Below are positions 1 through 7,891 of a stretch of 64,000 nt of DNA, in pieces; position 1 is the first letter of the stretch; every line of letters starts with the position of its first letter. A program made the position numbers and the translations under genes. The DNA comes from Streptomyces iakyrus (GTDB lineage Bacteria; Actinomycetota; Actinomycetes; Streptomycetales; Streptomycetaceae): assembly GCF_000717055.1 (NCBI RefSeq), contig NZ_JNXI01000017.1, forward strand, positions 1 to 64,000, given 5' to 3'. A model generated the notes under the pieces. That model did no database searches, was not told the origin of the DNA, and was given only the letters and a program-made list of their open reading frames with translations.

Positions 1-1454
1 GTGGGGGTGGGACGGGAGGGGAGCACGTGCAGAGTGAGGGTTACGGCGGCCGGGTCCACCTCGCGCCGGGAGGCGAGCAGGCGGTGGGCTGCCACCGGGT
101 CGTCGCCGGTGTGGGGGTTGCGGGCGTGGGCCGGGAAGTGGTGGCCGGCGATCTCCAGGCGCAGCCGGGTGCCGGCGCGCAGCCGGCGCGTGAGCCGGCC
201 GAGGCCGATGGTGAACTCGGCTGGGCGGCCGACCGGTTCGGCTCGCCGGACGACGCCGACGGCGAGCCGCTCGGCGTTCCCCTCCGGGCTGAGCGCGACG
301 AGCCGGGCGGCCCAGTCCGCGGACGGCGTGTGAGCGGTGGCCCGTAGCCGGGCTCCGGCGGGTCCGACGACGTCGAGCGGACGGGGCAGCGGTGGGGTGA
401 TCAGCACGCACCGGTCGGGGGGTCCGTCGGTCGGGACGGTCAGGTCGTCGGAGCGGACGGGCCGGTCGGGGTCGGCGGTGAACGCTGAGCCGTGGAGCAG
501 CCGCGGCCGTTGTGCGCGCGGAAGGCCGTCGGCGCAGGCGGGCAGCCACAGGTCGGCTCCGCCCAGTGCCAGTGCGCCGTGGCGGCCGGGGGCGAGTTCG
601 CCGGACAGGGCGCGCAGGGCCCAGCGCACGTACAGCTCGCCGAGGTTCAGCCGGTGGGCGGGCCCCGCGTCCGGGCCCGGCGTGGAGCGGAGGCCGTGCC
701 CCCAGGGGCCGAGGAGCAGACGCGCAGAGGGGCCGCCCCAGTCGCGCCACAGGGCGACGGTGTCGTCGGTGAAGTGGTCGTGGTGGCCGCCGACCGCGAG
801 CAAGGGCATCCCGGCATGTGCGGCCCGCGTCACGAGACGCCCACGATCGTGGTGGCGCCACAGATCCGCCCAGGAGGGCAGGCTCCGGCCCAGCCGCTCG
901 GGGAGAGCGGTCAGCGGCAGGTGGGCGAGCAGGCCGGGGTCCGTGGCGAGGGCCTTGTCCAGGGCGCTCTCGTCGGAGTCCGGCCGGTCGCCATGAGCGG
1001 CCCACCATCCGGCGCGCGGGCGCAGCCGCTCCACGCCGGACGCCTCGCGCGCCGTCTCCGCGAGGCCGAGCGCGGGCACGGCCGCGATGACGGCGTCCGG
1101 CCGCGCGTCCCGGGGTGCGTCGAGGGCGAGGACGAGGGCGCAGTGGGCGGCGTAGGAGGCGCCGACGGCCACCAGCCGGCCGTCGCCCCAGGGCTGCCGC
1201 CGGATCCAGCGGGCGGTCGCCGCCCCGTCGGTGGTCTCGTTCGTGAAGGGGTGCCACTCCCCCGGTGACGCGAAGCGGCCCCGCACGTCCTGGACGACGG
1301 CGGCGAACCCCTGGCGGGCCCAGCCGGAGGCTTCGGCCCGGTGCCTGGCGCGGTCGTAGGGAGTGCGGACGAGGACGGCCGGGAAGGGCCCGTCGCCGGC
1401 GGGGAGTCGGACGTCGGTGGCGAGCCCGTCGACGGTCGCGCTGAACGCCGTCAT
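1..1454 (-). CDS. CocE/NonD family hydrolase (X-Pro dipeptidyl-peptidase-like), 3' end outside window
   Basis: An alpha/beta hydrolase of the CocE/X-Pro dipeptidyl-peptidase family, whose members cleave esters or X-Pro peptides. The start ATG at 1454 overlaps the TGA of the upstream gene by 4 bp, so the two are probably translationally coupled. The first 484 codons are visible. The nucleophile motif GASYAAH has Ser100; later come an Asp-containing VGGHHDHFTDD stretch and LGPWGHG with the likely catalytic His, followed by the jelly-roll C-terminal domain usual in the family. It is the last visible gene of the operon behind the 37-residue peptide gene at 2390-2503, so a role in processing or releasing a peptide product is possible; that is inference. 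A plain esterase carried in the operon is the alternative. Confidence 0.85.
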   Translation of the reverse strand, partial: MTAFSATVDGLATDVRLPAGDGPFPAVLVRTPYDRARHRAEASGWARQGFAAVVQDVRGRFASPGEWHPFTNETTDGAATARWIRRQPWGDGRLVAVGASYAAHCALVLALDAPRDARPDAVIAAVPALGLAETAREASGVERLRPRAGWWAAHGDRPDSDESALDKALATDPGLLAHLPLTALPERLGRSLPSWADLWRHHDRGRLVTRAAHAGMPLLAVGGHHDHFTDDTVALWRDWGGPSARLLLGPWGHGLRSTPGPDAGPAHRLNLGELYVRWALRALSGELAPGRHGALALGGADLWLPACADGLPRAQRPRLLHGSAFTADPDRPVRSDDLTVPTDGPPDRCVLITPPLPRPLDVVGPAGARLRATAHTPSADWAARLVALSPEGNAERLAVGVVRRAEPVGRPAEFTIGLGRLTRRLRAGTRLRLEIAGHHFPAHARNPHTGDDPVAAHRLLASRREVDPAAVTLTLHVLPSRPTP

Positions 1455-2299
1455 CCGTCCTGCTTCGGCATCGATGCCACGTCCGGCACCGGCAGGACGG
1501 GGTGTTCGGTGACGGTCAGGGTGCGCAGGTCGACGCGGCGCAGCCGGCGTCGTGCCGGGAGGCCGGCCGTGTGGGGCGCTGCGGTGGCCCACCGGGTGAG
1601 GTCGTCGGCGAGCAGCGCCGCGAGCAGTGTGGCGGCGGGAACGGCGAGCCGGACGGGTGCGCCGAGGGTGCGGGGGCCGGTCCAGTACGCGGCCAGTTCG
1701 CGGTGCGCTGGGGTGGCGGCGAGCCGGCGGGAGCGGATGTGGGCGGAGGTGACGTCTCCGGGGTCGGCTGCGACCGGCTCGACGTAGGCCTGCCAGCCCT
1801 CGCGGTGGCAGCGCAGCCAGGCGACGCCGTGCTCGGGCAGCCGGTCCGCGGTGTCCCACAGCCCGTCGGGCACGGGTCCGTCGAGGCACCACACGACGGC
1901 GGCGGGGGCCGTGGCGAGCAGGTCGTCGAGGCCGGCCGGTGACGTGGTGCCGGCCGGAGCGGTGCGCGGGTCGGCGCCCAGGGCCGTCAGGTGTGCGGCG
2001 AGGGGTCCGGTCAGTACCGGGTCGCCGATGAGCCGGATGTGCCGGCGGTCGGCCGGCCACTCGGCGGGCGGGATGCCGTCCGCCAGGAATCCGGCCTGCT
2101 CGAACCCGCGGACGACGCGGTCGACTTCGGTGTCCGCCCGGTGCGGGGTCTCGTCGCCGGTGAGCCGGGAGAGCAGGAGCCGCTCGTCCGCGTCGCCGGT
2201 CCTGACGGTGAGGAAGTCCCCTTCGGGGGTACGGACGGCGAGACCTCGCCCGGGTACGGCGACGACCTCGGCACCGGGTACGAGTCGGCTGTGGGACAC
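1451..2299 (-). CDS. RRE-containing TOMM-type partner protein (leader-peptide binding, cyclodehydratase E1-like/ocin-ThiF-like)
   Basis: A 282-residue protein. GTG at 2299 is chosen because AGGAGG lies 6 bases upstream; a longer reading frame to 2353 has no such site. The first ~85 residues have the pattern of a PqqD-like RIPP recognition element: a SRLVPGAEVVAVPGRGLAV beta-hairpin, then a helix-turn-helix ending FEQAGFLADG. The rest resembles the E1/ThiF-like part of TOMM F proteins and cyclodehydratase partners (a GLWDTADRL helix, then a segment ending in SRRLAATPAHRELAAYW), but no ATP-binding GxGxxG or zinc cysteines are visible, so it is likely non-catalytic. Such proteins bind a precursor's leader and hand it to a YcaO or other enzyme. 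No YcaO is present in the window; it could lie beyond the left edge. Family assignment is by pattern only. Confidence 0.7.
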   Translation of the reverse strand: MSHSRLVPGAEVVAVPGRGLAVRTPEGDFLTVRTGDADERLLLSRLTGDETPHRADTEVDRVVRGFEQAGFLADGIPPAEWPADRRHIRLIGDPVLTGPLAAHLTALGADPRTAPAGTTSPAGLDDLLATAPAAVVWCLDGPVPDGLWDTADRLPEHGVAWLRCHREGWQAYVEPVAADPGDVTSAHIRSRRLAATPAHRELAAYWTGPRTLGAPVRLAVPAATLLAALLADDLTRWATAAPHTAGLPARRRLRRVDLRTLTVTEHPVLPVPDVASMPKQDG

Positions 2300-2331
2300 G
2301 GCGTTCCTCCTGGCGACGGGCTGGGGACGGG

Positions 2332-2367
2332 CGTGGGCCCGCCCGGAAGGCAACGGGCGGGCCCACG
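2332..2367 (-). terminator. 14-bp perfect hairpin between peptide gene and RRE gene (attenuator-like)
   Basis: Arms 2332-2345 and 2354-2367 are perfectly complementary over 14 bp, almost all G and C, around an 8-base loop. The hairpin lies 23 bases past the stop of the peptide gene and about 30 bases before the GTG of the next gene. There is no T tract. Precursor genes in RiPP operons often carry such a partial terminator so that the peptide is made in excess of its enzymes; that reading here is inference. Confidence 0.75.
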
Positions 2368-2389
2368 TTCGAGGGAGCTGAGCCCTCGC

Positions 2390-2503
2390 TTACTCCTCGG
2401 TGTCCTCGAAGGGGTTCTCGACGAGCGCGTTGGAGTGGGAAGCCGAGTCGTGAGCCAGCTGACCCGGGTCGGCGATCGGCGCGAAGACCTGCTCGTTGTC
2501 CAT
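2390..2503 (-). CDS. 37-residue acidic peptide, candidate RiPP precursor
   Basis: The gene encodes 37 residues starting MDNEQVFAPIADPG, with a middle SASHSNALVE and an end NPFEDTEE. AAGGAGA sits 7 bases before the ATG. It has no Cys and no hydrophobic segment, but has two His (18 and 23), three Ser, one Thr and a strongly acidic C-terminus. It follows a strong promoter with a Zur-like operator and is followed by a hairpin and then an RRE-domain gene. That arrangement is typical of a precursor peptide. I do not recognise the family. The alternatives are a small regulatory or metal-buffering peptide. Confidence 0.65.
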   Translation of the reverse strand: MDNEQVFAPIADPGQLAHDSASHSNALVENPFEDTEE

Positions 2504-2556
2504 GAACTCTCCTTCATCTCAGGGAGATACGGCGTTCGGATGAGCGCCGCGATCAC

Positions 2557-2585
2557 ACGCTAATGAATCTGATTTTCATATTCAA
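2557..2585 (-). promoter_or_regulatory. Promoter for the peptide gene with Zur-like box in the spacer
   Basis: Reading leftward, TTGAAT (2585-2580) and TAGCGT (2562-2557) are separated by exactly 17 bp. The spacer holds TGAATCTGATTTTCA (2564-2578, plus strand), which matches 13 of 15 positions of the Streptomyces Zur operator TGAAAATGATTTTCA as I recall it. The first three bases of the -10 hexamer are also the stop codon of the ATPase gene. The predicted leader to the peptide ATG is about 45-50 bases. Zinc-dependent repression is inferred. Confidence 0.65.
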
Positions 2586-3381
2586 GAGCTGCGATGGGGT
2601 GATCTGGGTAACACACCGGCCATCCCCCTTCCGGATCCTCGCCGACCCGGCCCGCCACCTTGAGGACCTCCGCCAGCAACCCCGGCGTGACGACCTGCTT
2701 CGGCGTCCCGTCGGCCACCACACGGCCCTCGCGCAGGGCGACGATCCGCTCGGCGAACCGGGCCGCGTGGGCCAGGTCGTGCAGCACCATCACCACCGTG
2801 AGCCCGCGCTCCTCGCGCAGGCGCACCACGGTCTGCAGCACGTCGAGTTGGTGGTGCAGGTCCAGGTAGGTGGTCGGCTCGTCGAGCAGCAGGACGCGCG
2901 TGTCCTGGGCGAGCGCCATCGCGAGCCGCACCCGCTGCCGCTCACCCCCCGACAGCGCGTCGACGTCACGGTCGGCCCACTGCTCCACCCCGACATCGCG
3001 CAGAGCCCGCCGCACGACGGGGTCGTCGCCCTCGCGCAGCATGCCGAGCGGCCCGCGTGCCGCGTACCGGCCCTGACGCACGAGGTGACGCACCGTCATG
3101 CCCGGTACGGCCGGGGCGGACTGGTGCAGCAGCGCCACCCTGCGGGCCGTGGCGCGCCTCGACAGCCGGGCGAGGTCGTCCGCACCGAGCAGTACGCGCC
3201 CCGCATCCGGCCGCAGCAGTCCCGCGGCCAGCCGCAGCAGCGTCGACTTGCCGCAGCCGTTCAGGCCGATGAGGGCGGTCAGTTCGCCCGGCCGGACCGT
3301 CATGTCGACGCCCCTCAGCACGGGTCGTCCGGGATAGCCGAAGTGGACCCCCTCGACGTGGATCCCCACGGACTCGGTCAT
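2560..3381 (-). CDS. FecE-type ABC transporter ATP-binding protein (metallophore uptake)
   Basis: The 273-residue ATPase energises import by the two permeases encoded just upstream. Visible motifs are Walker A GLNGCGKST (39-47), a Q-loop in LLHQSAP, the signature LSGGERQRV, Walker B VLLLDEPT and the H-loop VLHDL. This matches FecE/FhuC-type siderophore and cobalamin importers. The ATG at 3381 is chosen because the family N-terminus (VGIHVEGVHFGYPGR) begins directly after it; the longer open frame upstream overlaps the permease gene. The gene follows the permease by 20 bp and ends inside the promoter of the peptide gene. The nature of the cargo is not visible in the ATPase itself. Confidence 0.93.
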   Translation of the reverse strand: MTESVGIHVEGVHFGYPGRPVLRGVDMTVRPGELTALIGLNGCGKSTLLRLAAGLLRPDAGRVLLGADDLARLSRRATARRVALLHQSAPAVPGMTVRHLVRQGRYAARGPLGMLREGDDPVVRRALRDVGVEQWADRDVDALSGGERQRVRLAMALAQDTRVLLLDEPTTYLDLHHQLDVLQTVVRLREERGLTVVMVLHDLAHAARFAERIVALREGRVVADGTPKQVVTPGLLAEVLKVAGRVGEDPEGGWPVCYPDHPIAALEYENQIH

Positions 3382-3401
3382 GCTCTGCCCTTCGGTCGAC
3401 T

Positions 3402-4409
3402 TCAGAACGTACGGCTCGGCGTGCGGCGCACGACGACCAGCAGCAGCGCGGCGCCCAGGCAGGCGGTGAGCGCCCCGACCGGCAACGTGAACCGGCCGGC
3501 GTCCAGCCCGGGTACCGGCAGCCGCGAGGACAACTGCGCGGCGGCGTCCGCCCCGCACACCACGACCGCGCCCACCAGGGCGGCACCGGGAAGGCTCACC
3601 CGCAGGTCCGCGCCGAAGACGGCCACGGCCAGATGCGGAACGAGCAGCCCCACGAAGCCCAGCGCCCCGACGGCGGCCACCGCGCCCGCCGTCAGCGCCA
3701 CCGCGCACAGCAGGGCGAGGGTCCGTGCCGGCCGGACGGACAGGCCGGCCGTGAGGGCGATGTCGTCCCCGCAGCGCAGCAGGGTCAGCGGTCCGGCGAG
3801 CAGCCAGGCCCCGGCCCCCCAGAGGAGCGCCCACGGCCACAGCAGGTGCCAGTGCTGCCACACCCGCCCCTCGGTGGTGCCCACCAACCACTGGACGACG
3901 CTCCCGAGTTCACCCGGCTCCACCAGGAGCACCATGGCGGTGAGGCCGCCGAGCACCGCCGACACCAGCACTCCGTGCACGGCGGTCTGTGCCGGGTCCC
4001 CCCGGCCGCGGCCGGCGAGCAGCCACAGCAGCGCCGCTCCGGCACACCCGCCCGTACAAGCCGCGAGGACGACGGCCAGTGGCGAGTCCCATCCGGCGAG
4101 CCCCAGAGCAGTCGCGGTGACGGCCCCGAGGACCGCGCCCGGCGTCACGCCCGTCACCTCGGGTCCGGCGAGCGGGTTGCGCAAAGCCGACTGGAGGACC
4201 AGCCCCGCCACGGCCAGGCACGCGCCCGCCCCGAGGGACACCAGCAGTCTGGGCAGGCGCAGTTGGAAGAAGATGTGGCGTGCCGTCGCGTCACCGCCGC
4301 CGTTCACGACGTCCCAGACCACGCCCGGGGACATGCCGCGCCCGGCCACCAGTTCCACGCCGGCGCACACGACGGCAAGGGCCGCGAGCGCCATGAAACG
4401 CCGGGTCAC
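3402..4409 (-). CDS. FecCD family metallophore ABC transporter permease (second subunit)
   Basis: A 335-residue BtuC/FecCD-type permease with about nine to ten hydrophobic segments and the family signature LRLPRLLVSLGAGACLAVAG, followed by LQSALRNPLAGPEVTGV. The loop GALGFVGLLVPHLAV is the usual contact for the ATPase. Start GTG at 4409 overlaps the stop of the upstream permease by 4 bp (GTGA). It would form the membrane channel as a heterodimer with the product of 4406-5632. Confidence 0.93.
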   Translation of the reverse strand: MTRRFMALAALAVVCAGVELVAGRGMSPGVVWDVVNGGGDATARHIFFQLRLPRLLVSLGAGACLAVAGLVLQSALRNPLAGPEVTGVTPGAVLGAVTATALGLAGWDSPLAVVLAACTGGCAGAALLWLLAGRGRGDPAQTAVHGVLVSAVLGGLTAMVLLVEPGELGSVVQWLVGTTEGRVWQHWHLLWPWALLWGAGAWLLAGPLTLLRCGDDIALTAGLSVRPARTLALLCAVALTAGAVAAVGALGFVGLLVPHLAVAVFGADLRVSLPGAALVGAVVVCGADAAAQLSSRLPVPGLDAGRFTLPVGALTACLGAALLLVVVRRTPSRTF

Positions 4410-5632
4410 CGTACGTCCTCCGTGCCGGTCGGCCGGGAAGGGGGCGGCTGAGTCCCGCCGGCCCCGGCTTCCTCTCGTCGAGCGTCGTCCGGGGCCGCAC
4501 GGGGGACTTCGTCCGTCACGCCGGATGCGGCCGTCCGTGGGCCGTGCAGCGCCTTGCCCACGCCCGGCGCGGACCGGGCGGCCCGGCCGCGGCCACCCGA
4601 CCGCATCAGAGCGACCCCGGCCGGAACCCCCAGCAGGGCCGTCCAGGCGCCGGCCGGCGTCTCCACGGGTGCCAGCGCCAGCCGGGCCGGGACATCGGCG
4701 ACCGTGACGACGGCGGCACCCCAGGCGGCGGACCACGGAAGCCAGCGCACCGCTCCCGCAGTGGGGTTGAACCACCGGGCGAGGTGCGGGGCGAGGAAAC
4801 CCACCCACGCGACGGGCCCGCACACCGCCGTGACCGGGGCGATCAGCACCACGGCGATGGCCAGCGCGGCGAGCCGCGCCCGGTGGGCGCGCACACCCAG
4901 CGCCTCCGCGTCCTCGTCACCCAGCCGCATCACCGACAGGACCGGCGCACACAGTACGAGGGCGGGAACGGCGACGAGCAGCCACGGCCACAGCCCGGCG
5001 ATGTCGTCCCAGGTCCGGGCGGAGAGGGAGCCGAGCAGGTAGCGGTAGATGAGGTGGAGGTCCAGCTGGTCGGCCATGACCATCAGCACGAGCAGCGCCG
5101 CCTGCAGAGCGGCGGCGACCGCGGCGCCGGTCAGCAGGACGGCGGACGGGCTGCGGCCCAGCCCGGCGGCGAGCAGCGTCAGCCCACCGCCGAGCGCGGC
5201 CCCGCCGATGGCCAGCAAGGGCTGGACGGCGGCAGGCAGGGACAGCGTCAGCACCAGAGGCGCGGCCACCCCCAGTGCGGCCCCGGACGACACACCCAGC
5301 ATCTCCGGCACCGCCAGGGGATTGCGCAGGGCCTCCTGGAGCACCAGTCCGGCCGCCCCGAGACAGGCACCGGCGACGAGCGCCAGCACCAGGCGGGGCA
5401 CGCGGAGTTCGGTGACGACGATCCCGGCGAGGGTGGTGTCCCCGTCCAGCACCGCACCGGCCAGCCGGTGCGGTGGGACGTACGGGGTGCCGAGGCTCAG
5501 CGCGCAGAGCGAGGAGGCCACCAGCAGCACGGCCACCAGGACGGGCTGCCACGTTCGCGCACCGCGCGAGGGCCGCCGCCCGCCTGCCGCGGGACCATCC
5601 GCCGCGGCGGGCAGCGGCAGGGGCGCCCTCAC
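4406..5632 (-). CDS. FecCD family metallophore ABC transporter permease (first subunit)
   Basis: A 408-residue permease related to its downstream neighbour: ELRVPRLVLALVAGACLGAAG, then LQEALRNPLAVPEMLGVSSGAALG, and the ATPase-contact loop GPVAWVGFLAPHLAR. It has a longer hydrophilic C-terminal tail (about 70 residues, rich in Arg, Ala and Pro) than most homologues, ending at the 4-bp overlap with the next gene. The GTG start at 5632 overlaps the stop of the binding-protein gene (GTGA at 5629-5632). Together with 3402-4409 it forms the importer channel. Confidence 0.92.
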   Translation of the reverse strand: MRAPLPLPAAADGPAAGGRRPSRGARTWQPVLVAVLLVASSLCALSLGTPYVPPHRLAGAVLDGDTTLAGIVVTELRVPRLVLALVAGACLGAAGLVLQEALRNPLAVPEMLGVSSGAALGVAAPLVLTLSLPAAVQPLLAIGGAALGGGLTLLAAGLGRSPSAVLLTGAAVAAALQAALLVLMVMADQLDLHLIYRYLLGSLSARTWDDIAGLWPWLLVAVPALVLCAPVLSVMRLGDEDAEALGVRAHRARLAALAIAVVLIAPVTAVCGPVAWVGFLAPHLARWFNPTAGAVRWLPWSAAWGAAVVTVADVPARLALAPVETPAGAWTALLGVPAGVALMRSGGRGRAARSAPGVGKALHGPRTAASGVTDEVPRAAPDDARREEAGAGGTQPPPSRPTGTEDVR

Positions 5633-6606
5633 CGCAGCGCGGCCGTGGCCTCGTCGAGGACGATGCCCAGCGAACGGGTGCCGCGGCCCTTGGCCCACAC
5701 CTCTGAGTCGACCTCGTGGACGTCGCCGTTCTTCACTGCCGGGATCTTGCTCCAGAGGGGGTTCTCGGCCAGCTTCTCCGAGAGCTTGCCGTCCGCGTCG
5801 CCGAAGCTCATCGTCTCGACGAACAGCACGTCGACGTTCCGGGCGAGGATCTCCTCCAGGCTGTAACTTCCCTCGACACCACGGGACTTCCACGGGTACC
5901 GCGCGATCTTCGGGAACAGGCTCGCGGCCACGTCGGCCTCGGGGGTGGCGACGCCGAAGTTCTCGTCACTGCCGTAGATGATGAGCGCGGTCTTGTCACT
6001 CGGCGTCTTCTCGGCCTTGGCGAGCTTGGTGCGGAAGGTTTTCTCGGCCTTCTCGCCTTCGGCGGTGCGGCCGGTCAGGGCGGCGACGTCGCGCAGGTAG
6101 CCGACGCTGTCCTCCCAGGTCTCGGGCTGCATGGGCCAGAAGGTGGTGGCGCCCTTCAGGGCCGGGGCGAGCTTGCCGTGGGTGTCCCCCAGCCCGATGA
6201 CCAGGTCGGGCTTGTGGGAGAGGATCGCCTCCACCTCCGGGGCGATGAATCCGCCGGGGATGACGTCGACCTCCTTGGCCTTCTCCTCCCCCAGGAAGCC
6301 GGGGTGGGAGAGCAGTGCGCTGTTGGTGGCGGTCGGGACGATGCCCAGTTCGGTCAGGATGTCGTCGCACAGCGCGAACAGGCAGACGATGCGCTCGGGT
6401 TCCTTGCTCACGGAGACCTTGACGCCATTCGTGTCGGTCACGTCCGTCGACGCCTTGATGGGTTCGACGGTGACCTCGGTCCTCGCCGCGGGCTTTGCCT
6501 CGTCACTCGCGGGCTCGTCGGGCGACGAGCCGCAGCCGGCCAGCACGGAACCCACCAGCGCTGCGGTGATCCAACTGCGGACGAATCTCGACGGGGAGCG
6601 CAGCAT
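5629..6606 (-). CDS. FecB-type metallophore-binding lipoprotein
   Basis: A 325-residue extracellular binding protein for the adjacent permeases. The signal peptide ends in the lipobox VLAGC with Cys25. After an acidic linker the mature part has the TroA/FecB pattern: KEPERIVCLFALCDDILTELGI at the first lobe, DLVIGLGDTHGKL, and in the second lobe SYSLEEILARNVDVLFVET and a closing GIVLDEATAAL helix. It opens the operon binding protein, permease, permease, ATPase. The family binds Fe(III)-siderophores, heme, cobalamin or other metal chelates; the Zur-like box upstream argues for a zinc-related ligand, which is inference. Confidence 0.93.
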   Translation of the reverse strand: MLRSPSRFVRSWITAALVGSVLAGCGSSPDEPASDEAKPAARTEVTVEPIKASTDVTDTNGVKVSVSKEPERIVCLFALCDDILTELGIVPTATNSALLSHPGFLGEEKAKEVDVIPGGFIAPEVEAILSHKPDLVIGLGDTHGKLAPALKGATTFWPMQPETWEDSVGYLRDVAALTGRTAEGEKAEKTFRTKLAKAEKTPSDKTALIIYGSDENFGVATPEADVAASLFPKIARYPWKSRGVEGSYSLEEILARNVDVLFVETMSFGDADGKLSEKLAENPLWSKIPAVKNGDVHEVDSEVWAKGRGTRSLGIVLDEATAALR

Positions 6607-6653
6607 CGATGCCCTCGCTTCTTCTCAGGTGCCGGGAACTCACCGAACATACA

Positions 6654-6668
6654 TGATAATCGTTTTCA
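6654..6668. promoter_or_regulatory. Zur-like operator in the divergent promoter region
   Basis: TGATAATCGTTTTCA matches 12 of 15 positions of the recalled Zur consensus TGAAAATGATTTTCA and is an imperfect palindrome. It lies between the binding-protein gene (start 6606, leftward) and the propeller gene (start 6692, rightward). It overlaps a GATAAT that could serve as a -10 reading right. It probably controls both directions. This AT-rich stretch stands out in a GC-rich region. Confidence 0.6.
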
Positions 6669-6691
6669 CGAGACACCCTTTGGGAGGACCC

Positions 6692-7891
6692 ATGACCACT
6701 GCCGCACCCGTCCTGCTCGTCTCCGATCACGTGGCCGGGTCCGTCCACGTGCTGACCGTGCCGGACGGCACCGTCACGGGACGCCTCACCGGCCGCCATC
6801 TCTCCGAGCACGCCGGGTTCCTGGCCCTGTCAGAGGGGCGGGTGGCCTGTGTCGACGACCGCCGGGGGGAACTCCTGGTCCTCGACCCCTACGGCGAGCA
6901 GCTCGTGGAACGCGCGGTCCCGGTCGCCGTGCCGGCCGAGCACCTCGCCTGCGACCCGGCCGGGCGCCGGCTGGCCGTGACCACCGGCCTGGGCAAGAAC
7001 ACCGAGCCGTGGTCGGACCTGCTGACGGTCGTCGACCTGGCCACCGACAAGACCGCACGCGTGCGCACCCGGGTCGGTGAGCCGGGCGTGACGGTGCTGG
7101 GCGGCGGCGACCCGCTGGTCGTGCTGCGGCACCGGGAACCCGGGGCGCTGGCCGCACACCGGTTCGCGGATCTCCTCGCGGCTCCGCCCGGCTGCCCCGT
7201 GGCCTCGCCCCACGAGCTCCTGCCGTTGCCCGACGACGGCCACGGCGACGCCCAAGCCCCCGGTGCGGCAGACCTGTTCGTGGCCACCGGCGAGGGTGTG
7301 CACCGGGCCCGGAGGAAGGGCGACACGCTCCTGGCCGAGGCCGTGATCCCGTGGGAGGCGCCCGCCCGGGGGTGGTACCTGCGCCTCGACACCCGGCGGG
7401 CGGCGTTGTGGAGCACACTGCGCGGCGGCGCTCCCGACCCGCTGCGGTGGCCGGAGTGGACCAACCAGGCATGGCACCACGATCTGGAAACGGGTCGCAC
7501 GTCCCTCACGGAGCTCGGCCCCGGACTGGTCTTCCGGCTGGCCCTCGCCCGCAACCACACGGCGTTCACCCGCATCCACCCCGACGGCGACGAGCTGCTC
7601 CTCCTCGGCGCCGACGGCATCGTCCGCCGCACCCCCCTGCCGGCGATGGACGGTGCCCCGCGTCGCGGCGGCACCCCCTGGGAAGGCGTCCAGCGCCGGG
7701 CCGTGGCCGCCTCACCCGGCTCCGACTGGGTCGCCGTCACCCGCGGCGGCCACGGCGAAGTCCACATCGTCGATGCGCGAACGGGCCACGAGGCGGCCCG
7801 TCCGCGGTTGAGCACACCGCTGCATCACGGCGGCCACATGGCCCTGCGCAACCGCACCGACGGCGCCGAGGGCGATCCCGTGGGCCGGTGA
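6692..7891 (+). CDS. Beta-propeller protein, no signal peptide, divergent from metallophore importer
   Basis: A 399-residue protein; GGGAGGACCC precedes the ATG. Repeated strand units such as LLVSDHVAGSVHVLTVPDG, GELLVLDPYGEQ and EVHIVDARTGHEA indicate a WD40/YVTN-like beta-propeller. There is no signal peptide or membrane segment, so it appears cytoplasmic. Near the end is a His-rich turn LSTPLHHGGHMAL that could bind metal. It is transcribed away from the importer operon across a Zur-like box. The zinc chaperone AztD is also a propeller, but AztD is secreted and works with an AztABC importer, so equating them is not justified; the function is unknown. Confidence 0.75.
   Translation: MTTAAPVLLVSDHVAGSVHVLTVPDGTVTGRLTGRHLSEHAGFLALSEGRVACVDDRRGELLVLDPYGEQLVERAVPVAVPAEHLACDPAGRRLAVTTGLGKNTEPWSDLLTVVDLATDKTARVRTRVGEPGVTVLGGGDPLVVLRHREPGALAAHRFADLLAAPPGCPVASPHELLPLPDDGHGDAQAPGAADLFVATGEGVHRARRKGDTLLAEAVIPWEAPARGWYLRLDTRRAALWSTLRGGAPDPLRWPEWTNQAWHHDLETGRTSLTELGPGLVFRLALARNHTAFTRIHPDGDELLLLGADGIVRRTPLPAMDGAPRRGGTPWEGVQRRAVAASPGSDWVAVTRGGHGEVHIVDARTGHEAARPRLSTPLHHGGHMALRNRTDGAEGDPVGR

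Follow-up and report, generated by a model that had tools for sequence, protein, structure and literature searches.

The window, meaning here the whole 64,000-nucleotide stretch of Streptomyces iakyrus DNA analysed (NZ_JNXI01000017.1, contig C17), opens with genes of a streptamidine-type (ami) cluster for a ribosomally synthesized and post-translationally modified peptide (RiPP), and two boxes of the type bound by the zinc regulator Zur lie at its promoters. The placement and conservation of these boxes make Zur control of the streptamidine family very likely, and our best reading, to which we give a probability of roughly 0.6, is that ami is a Zur-repressed zinc-acquisition cluster whose peptide carries zinc. 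It is the regulation that appears to be the new element. Streptamidine itself was published in 2021 from S. albidoflavus J1074 (PMC8442711), and the suggestion in the initial annotation of a new RiPP zincophore has to be divided accordingly: the RiPP family had already been characterized, but Zur control of ami was not reported in the open-licence literature we searched, and the word 'Zur' is missing from the main text of PMC8442711.

A streptamidine-family precursor and its partner genes

The available text of PMC8442711 names the cluster genes amiF1–F4, A, B, C, D, E, T1, T2 and X and describes the isolated product, streptamidine, as the core HLSATH with an N-terminal amidine. In the window, amiA (2390..2503, minus strand) encodes a 37-residue peptide, MDNEQVFAPIADPGQLAHDSASHSNALVENPFEDTEE, which matches the NCBIfam model NF040714 ('streptamidine family RiPP') with 64.5 bits (cut-off 40, E = 6.2e-18) and has the core HDSASH and the follower SNALVENPF. 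Flanking it in ami order are amiF1–F4, amiB and amiC, the last cut at the contig start. The genes amiD, amiE and amiT1/T2, which an ami cluster also requires, are found on contig C28 of the same assembly (9.13 Mb in 181 contigs; the window starts at base 1 of C17). There the YcaO gene amiD, one of three YcaO genes in the genome, begins 43 bases from the contig end, and past it lie a gene for a SagB-like dehydrogenase (amiE) and two ATP-binding cassette (ABC) exporter genes (amiT1/T2). Because the final 19 bases of C28 are, read by eye, the initial 19 of C17, and because relatives with unbroken contigs have the same ami gene order as C28 and C17 combined, we regard the two contigs as contiguous. 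It is near certain that the locus belongs to the streptamidine (ami) RiPP family; combined, the C17 and C28 gene sets make up a cluster of the kind that PMC8442711 describes. The initial annotation had proposed looking leftward for YcaO and dehydrogenase genes and searching genomes for a conserved linkage of peptide, RiPP recognition element (RRE) gene and importer; both enzymes are indeed encoded at the C28 end, together with exporters, and the linkage holds in dozens of genomes.

Within the genus of the window NF040714 matched 50 of 392 genomes (the source genome included), and within the class 21 of 394, 18 of the latter above the cut-off; NF040715, which describes streptamidine-related repeats, matched 3 of 396 genomes, none above its cut-off. 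Leaving out G577 and G649, whose short hits fell below the cut-off, the NF040714 matches gave 67 loci in addition to the window. Across the 68 loci (34 distinct units; the reading frame in G753 is interrupted), AmiA shows no variation at S3, at H6 or in the follower stretches SNALV and NPF; 32 of the 34 units have H1, and core position 2 can be L, A, D, H or Q. These figures are biased toward conservation since the loci were collected with a model of the same motif. Conservation that is higher in the follower than in the core would be expected if the follower were a recognition sequence, or if the product extended beyond the hexapeptide.

Zur-type boxes in the source genome

According to the available text of PMC5472717, S. 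coelicolor Zur recognizes the 15-bp sequence tGaNNatSatNNtCa. The first ami box, TGAAAATCAGATTCA (2564..2578, minus strand), is the likely amiA operator and lies within the 3' end of amiF4. The second (6654..6668, no strand assigned), which reads TGAAAACGATTATCA on the minus strand, is located between amiF1 and amiX. By eye each box has one mismatch to the published sequence, and each has two to TGAAAATGATTTTCA. Allowing up to two mismatches to TGAAAATGATTTTCA, a genome-wide search found just seven places in 9.13 Mb; allowing up to three, it found 25, compared with 1 per strand for the reversed-pattern control. Targets identified beside these places are znuA, divergent znuB/znuC-type genes, an L33–L31 pair, a second znuA and a zigA-like gene, and two more of the places are the ami boxes. 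Among the remaining places, some sit within reading frames.

Conservation of the boxes among relatives

In the model-found set we scored a box where a 15-mer with no more than 3 mismatches lay within 130 nt upstream of amiA. Such a box is present in 61 of 68 loci, compared with 5 of 6800 mononucleotide shuffles of the upstream sequences, and is therefore more than chance. When loci of at least 9 kb were searched over their whole length (64 loci, 1.08 Mb; L084, L095, L123 and L124 were shorter and left out), 101 sites fell within the two ami promoters and 10 elsewhere, the reversed pattern gave 0, and for 57 of the 64 loci the top-scoring site overall was one of those in the ami promoters. The amiX/amiF1 promoter carries a box in 47 of 51 loci. 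Information per column is 1.30 and 1.67 bits in the boxes versus 0.27–0.56 in the flanks. Four of the 10 outside sites are at zigA-like genes (L098, L107, L125, L135), one is beside a weak zigA-like match (L133), two are at the importer (L131, L140) and three have no identified target (L080, L083, L102).

A second set was gathered by looking for HLSATH-type precursors in named genomes (64 stretches, 62 of them usable; L150 was dropped for too short an upstream and L184 as unparsed). Here the box was found in 60 of 62 stretches, including those from Streptomyces, Nocardiopsis, Prauserella, Microbacterium, Paenarthrobacter and Nocardioides, and in 14 of 15 groups, one group being a metagenome bin placed to family only. 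No box was found in Jiangella, where the site has 6 mismatches, or in one Cryobacterium of two, where it has 4. The sets overlap; merged, they comprise 130 loci with 113 distinct upstreams, 106 of which have the box. S. albidoflavus NRRL B-1271 has one at amiA (1 mismatch) and one at amiX/amiF1 (3). The two Zur-like boxes that the initial annotation had placed at two promoters are thus conserved well beyond this genome.

The boxes might instead be chance AT-rich palindromes, or a conserved promoter part read by another Fur-family protein. The box abuts promoter elements, which could be conserved regardless, and a gene for a Zur-type paralogue lies near ami in the source genome and in two other loci. 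Chance, however, is hard to reconcile with the shuffles and with the empty reversed control over 1.08 Mb. Among 67 other loci only 2 have the paralogue in the stretches searched, which reach about 10.5 kb or less downstream of amiA and would let farther copies escape; at that frequency it cannot account for the boxes elsewhere, and this local regulator (fur2) was rejected as a general explanation. We consider either version very improbable.

In the source genome the paralogue gene and a gene for a ZigA-like COG0523 GTPase adjoin amiT2 (C28; L074:6205-7905) and are convergent to the exporters. The best PDB matches of the regulator are 7vo0 and 3mwm (1e-30), which we take to be S. coelicolor Zur, and FurB 2o03 (2e-29), with 3eyy, presumably Nur, far behind (1e-8). 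The GTPase falls short of the ZigA cut-off (515.9 bits against 600) and has its own Zur-type box at C28:82664. Homologues of zigA with at least 60% identity are close to ami in 6 of 67 other loci.

Three further genomes deserve mention. The ami remnant of G753 (L141), with its interrupted amiA frame, retains exporter and importer-like genes and a perfect Zur box; amiC and amiD were not found there. The 3.5 Mb genome G468 has three ami places (L137, L138 and L139), possibly an assembly artefact; L139, which lies close to the end of a contig, is without a box and has no more than an amiX fragment beside amiA. In G027 (L239) an aztD gene lies about 1.1 kb from the ami cluster, and a Zur-type box is found there too (L239:5075).

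We also examined distant AmiD relatives (29–55% identity; 17 of 18 genomes without an NF040714 hit). A FecCD-type match is present in 16 of these 17 stretches and at least one Zur-type site in 11 of 17 loci (14 sites at up to 3 mismatches; reversed control 0), some sites being distant from any ami-like promoter, and their precursor was recognized in none of the 17. The Zur-type sites around these relatives are only suggestive and serve as a lead.

Promoter geometry at amiA

Directly past the box at amiA there is a likely −10 element. In the window a possible −35 element, TTGAAT (2580..2585, minus strand), is separated by 17 nt from a likely −10 element, TAGCGT (2557..2562, minus strand), and a TANNNT sequence begins one base past the box in 94 of 121 box-bearing loci; in 19 loci a TANNNT fits one base further from the box. 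A repressor bound directly before the −10 element would be expected to block the promoter. The amiF4 end overlaps the box in 47 of the 49 loci with amiF4 directly upstream, and the published deletion of amiF1–F4, which abolished production according to the available text of PMC8442711, may consequently have taken out the amiA promoter. We offer as a hypothesis that promoter removal may explain the lost production.

The importer, the propeller and the other genes of the locus

The four importer genes occupy the minus strand: amiF4 (2560..3381) encodes a FecE-type ATPase (Pfam ABC_tran, 1.1e-32), amiF3 (3402..4409) and amiF2 (4406..5632, start codon by eye) encode FecCD permeases (Pfam FecCD, 2.2e-67 and, on 4406-5629, 4.3e-68), and amiF1 (5629..6606) encodes a FecB-type substrate-binding protein (Pfam Peripla_BP_2, 1.1e-17). 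The AmiF1 substrate could not be read from its PDB matches, which include iron-siderophore-binding proteins. That resemblance, and the label of iron transporters given to amiF1–F4 in the available text of PMC8442711, would suit an iron siderophore-type cluster in which the FecBCD importer serves iron and the boxes are read by an iron regulator. However, none of 12 matches genome-wide to an iron-box consensus is on C17 or C28, the ami boxes are like those at znuA, L33–L31 and zigA-like genes, and the chrome azurol S (CAS) assay of the streptamidine study was negative according to its available text. Of the four DNA regions most similar to amiF4 in the rest of the genome, three do have an iron-box match at a distance of about 0.2 to 2.5 kb. 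With 0 of 12 at ami, iron control was rejected, and we hold an iron siderophore-type cluster to be extremely unlikely.

The divergent gene amiX (6692..7891, plus strand) encodes a protein without any Pfam or NCBIfam match at E 0.1. Its AlphaFold2 model (predicted local distance difference test score, pLDDT, 93.1) resembles beta-propellers, and the nearest known fold is that of the zinc chaperone AztD, top-ranked in two comparisons; as modelled, AmiX would have an AztD-type propeller fold. Sequence homology between the two could not be demonstrated, and we call AmiX AztD-like by fold only. H40, H84 and H184 of AmiX are invariant and might be counterparts of the three pore histidines of AztD zinc site 1. 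A signal peptide is not obvious by eye, and AmiX looks cytosolic. At C7:205500-215500 (L240) the source genome also has an AztD gene (484 bits) and another, AztD-like gene (57.6 bits, under the cut-off) near a Zur box at znuB/C-type genes.

On the minus strand beyond amiA, amiB (1451..2299, start codon by eye) is predicted to encode an RRE/E1-like YcaO partner. The RRE call of the initial annotation gains from homologues at the equivalent position in other ami loci, but the match to TIGR03882 is weak (21.7 bits, below the cut-off of 36.9). The gene amiC (1..1454) encodes a CocE/NonD (S15-type) hydrolase and predicted leader peptidase (NCBIfam TIGR00976, 7.6e-57; Pfam Peptidase_S15, 2.8e-36); the CocE-type assignment was confirmed, though the gene is incomplete, its 3' end being lost at the C17 start. 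Profile matches and the AlphaFold2 model bear out the presence and positions of importer, peptide, RRE-like protein, hydrolase and propeller as initially annotated.

A zinc-acquisition model and its competitor

When zinc is plentiful, Zn-Zur would sit on the box before the amiA −10 element and on the amiX/amiF1 box and repress both promoters. When zinc is short, AmiA would be produced and then modified by AmiB, AmiD and AmiE; AmiC would cleave the leader, AmiT1/T2 would send the peptide out and AmiF1–F4 would bring the zinc-loaded peptide back in, with the AztD-like propeller AmiX accepting or buffering the imported metal. The conserved core histidines (H-x-S-A-x-H) would be the zinc ligands, and the hexapeptide that was isolated is possibly just a piece of the actual chelator. 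The most likely function of the mature peptide is to carry zinc, set against one negative binding assay. More tentatively, and with slightly less than even odds in our estimation, streptamidine-type peptides may be the first ribosomal zincophores, the ligand being a longer or oxidized AmiA product of zinc starvation, the hexapeptide a breakdown fragment and AmiX the intracellular zinc receiver.

Several points weigh against zinc acquisition. First, to our knowledge neither binding of Zur nor a response to zinc has been measured at ami. Second, two of the seven best boxes in the genome (L013, L018) lack an identified zinc target, their neighbours having been partly scanned, and the genes around a site with 3 mismatches (L025) have no known connection to zinc. 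Third, 7 of the 113 distinct upstreams, Jiangella included, have no box at up to 3 mismatches, and a TTG-like −35 element is present at amiA in only 27 of the 121 box-bearing loci. Fourth, AmiF1 resembles iron-siderophore-binding proteins, as described above, the AztD model NF038015 (cut-off 400 bits) misses AmiX at E 0.1 and is absent among the matches of 34 AmiX homologues at E 1, and HHalign of AmiX with Streptomyces AztD gave nothing significant (L228, in the wrong frame, was excluded). Finally, the available text of PMC8442711 reports that binding by streptamidine was undetected for zinc and six other metals and that ∆amiD was normal under metal starvation. The zinc-controlled metallophore of the initial annotation therefore stands in its RiPP precursor and Zur-type boxes; its zinc binding is the inferred part, and the published test of it was negative.

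These published results suit a cluster that is Zur-controlled but whose peptide acts as a signal of zinc starvation or as a competition compound, the importer taking up the peptide or foreign metallophores. The authors, who describe the biological role as unknown, suggest signalling or development in the available text of PMC8442711, and a variable core position 2 beside an invariant follower is compatible with such a role. On the other hand, the cluster has an importer of the FecBCDE type, two dedicated exporters and an AztD-like propeller, and the promoter of importer and propeller carries a box as well; these features speak for a cycle of metal uptake, and we judge a signal or competition compound unlikely, if clearly worth keeping in view.

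The conserved Zur box singles out zinc starvation as the condition in which product, phenotype and metal complex should be sought. Zinc acquisition, if confirmed, would add a class of ribosomal zincophores and explain the importer within the cluster. Streptamidine-type clusters are widespread, in more than 230 species by the available text of PMC8442711, while their role is reported there as unknown.

Comparison with known systems

A ribosomal metallophore has a precedent in methanobactin, a RiPP copper chelator whose metal, precursor and enzymes differ from those of ami. The closest known system is the streptamidine cluster of S. albidoflavus J1074, which, in the available text of PMC8442711, shares with the present locus the precursor family, the core H-x-S-A-x-H and amiF1–F4, A, B, C, D, E, T1, T2 and X. 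The cores differ (HLSATH there, HDSASH here), and the source genome has in addition the Zur-type paralogue and ZigA-like gene beside amiT2; for the boxes, the conspecific strain NRRL B-1271, examined in place of J1074, bears both. In the coelibactin-type cluster of S. coelicolor, Zur binds the SCO7676 and SCO7681/7682 promoters (PMC5472717, available text), but coelibactin is a putative non-ribosomal peptide (PMC3430247, available text), unlike the ribosomal AmiA. In the AztABCD system with its chaperone AztD (PMC6689063, available text), aztABCD is Zur-controlled and AztD is the top fold match of the AmiX model; AmiX, in contrast, is unmatched by the AztD family model, has no obvious signal peptide and is paired with a FecBCDE-type importer.

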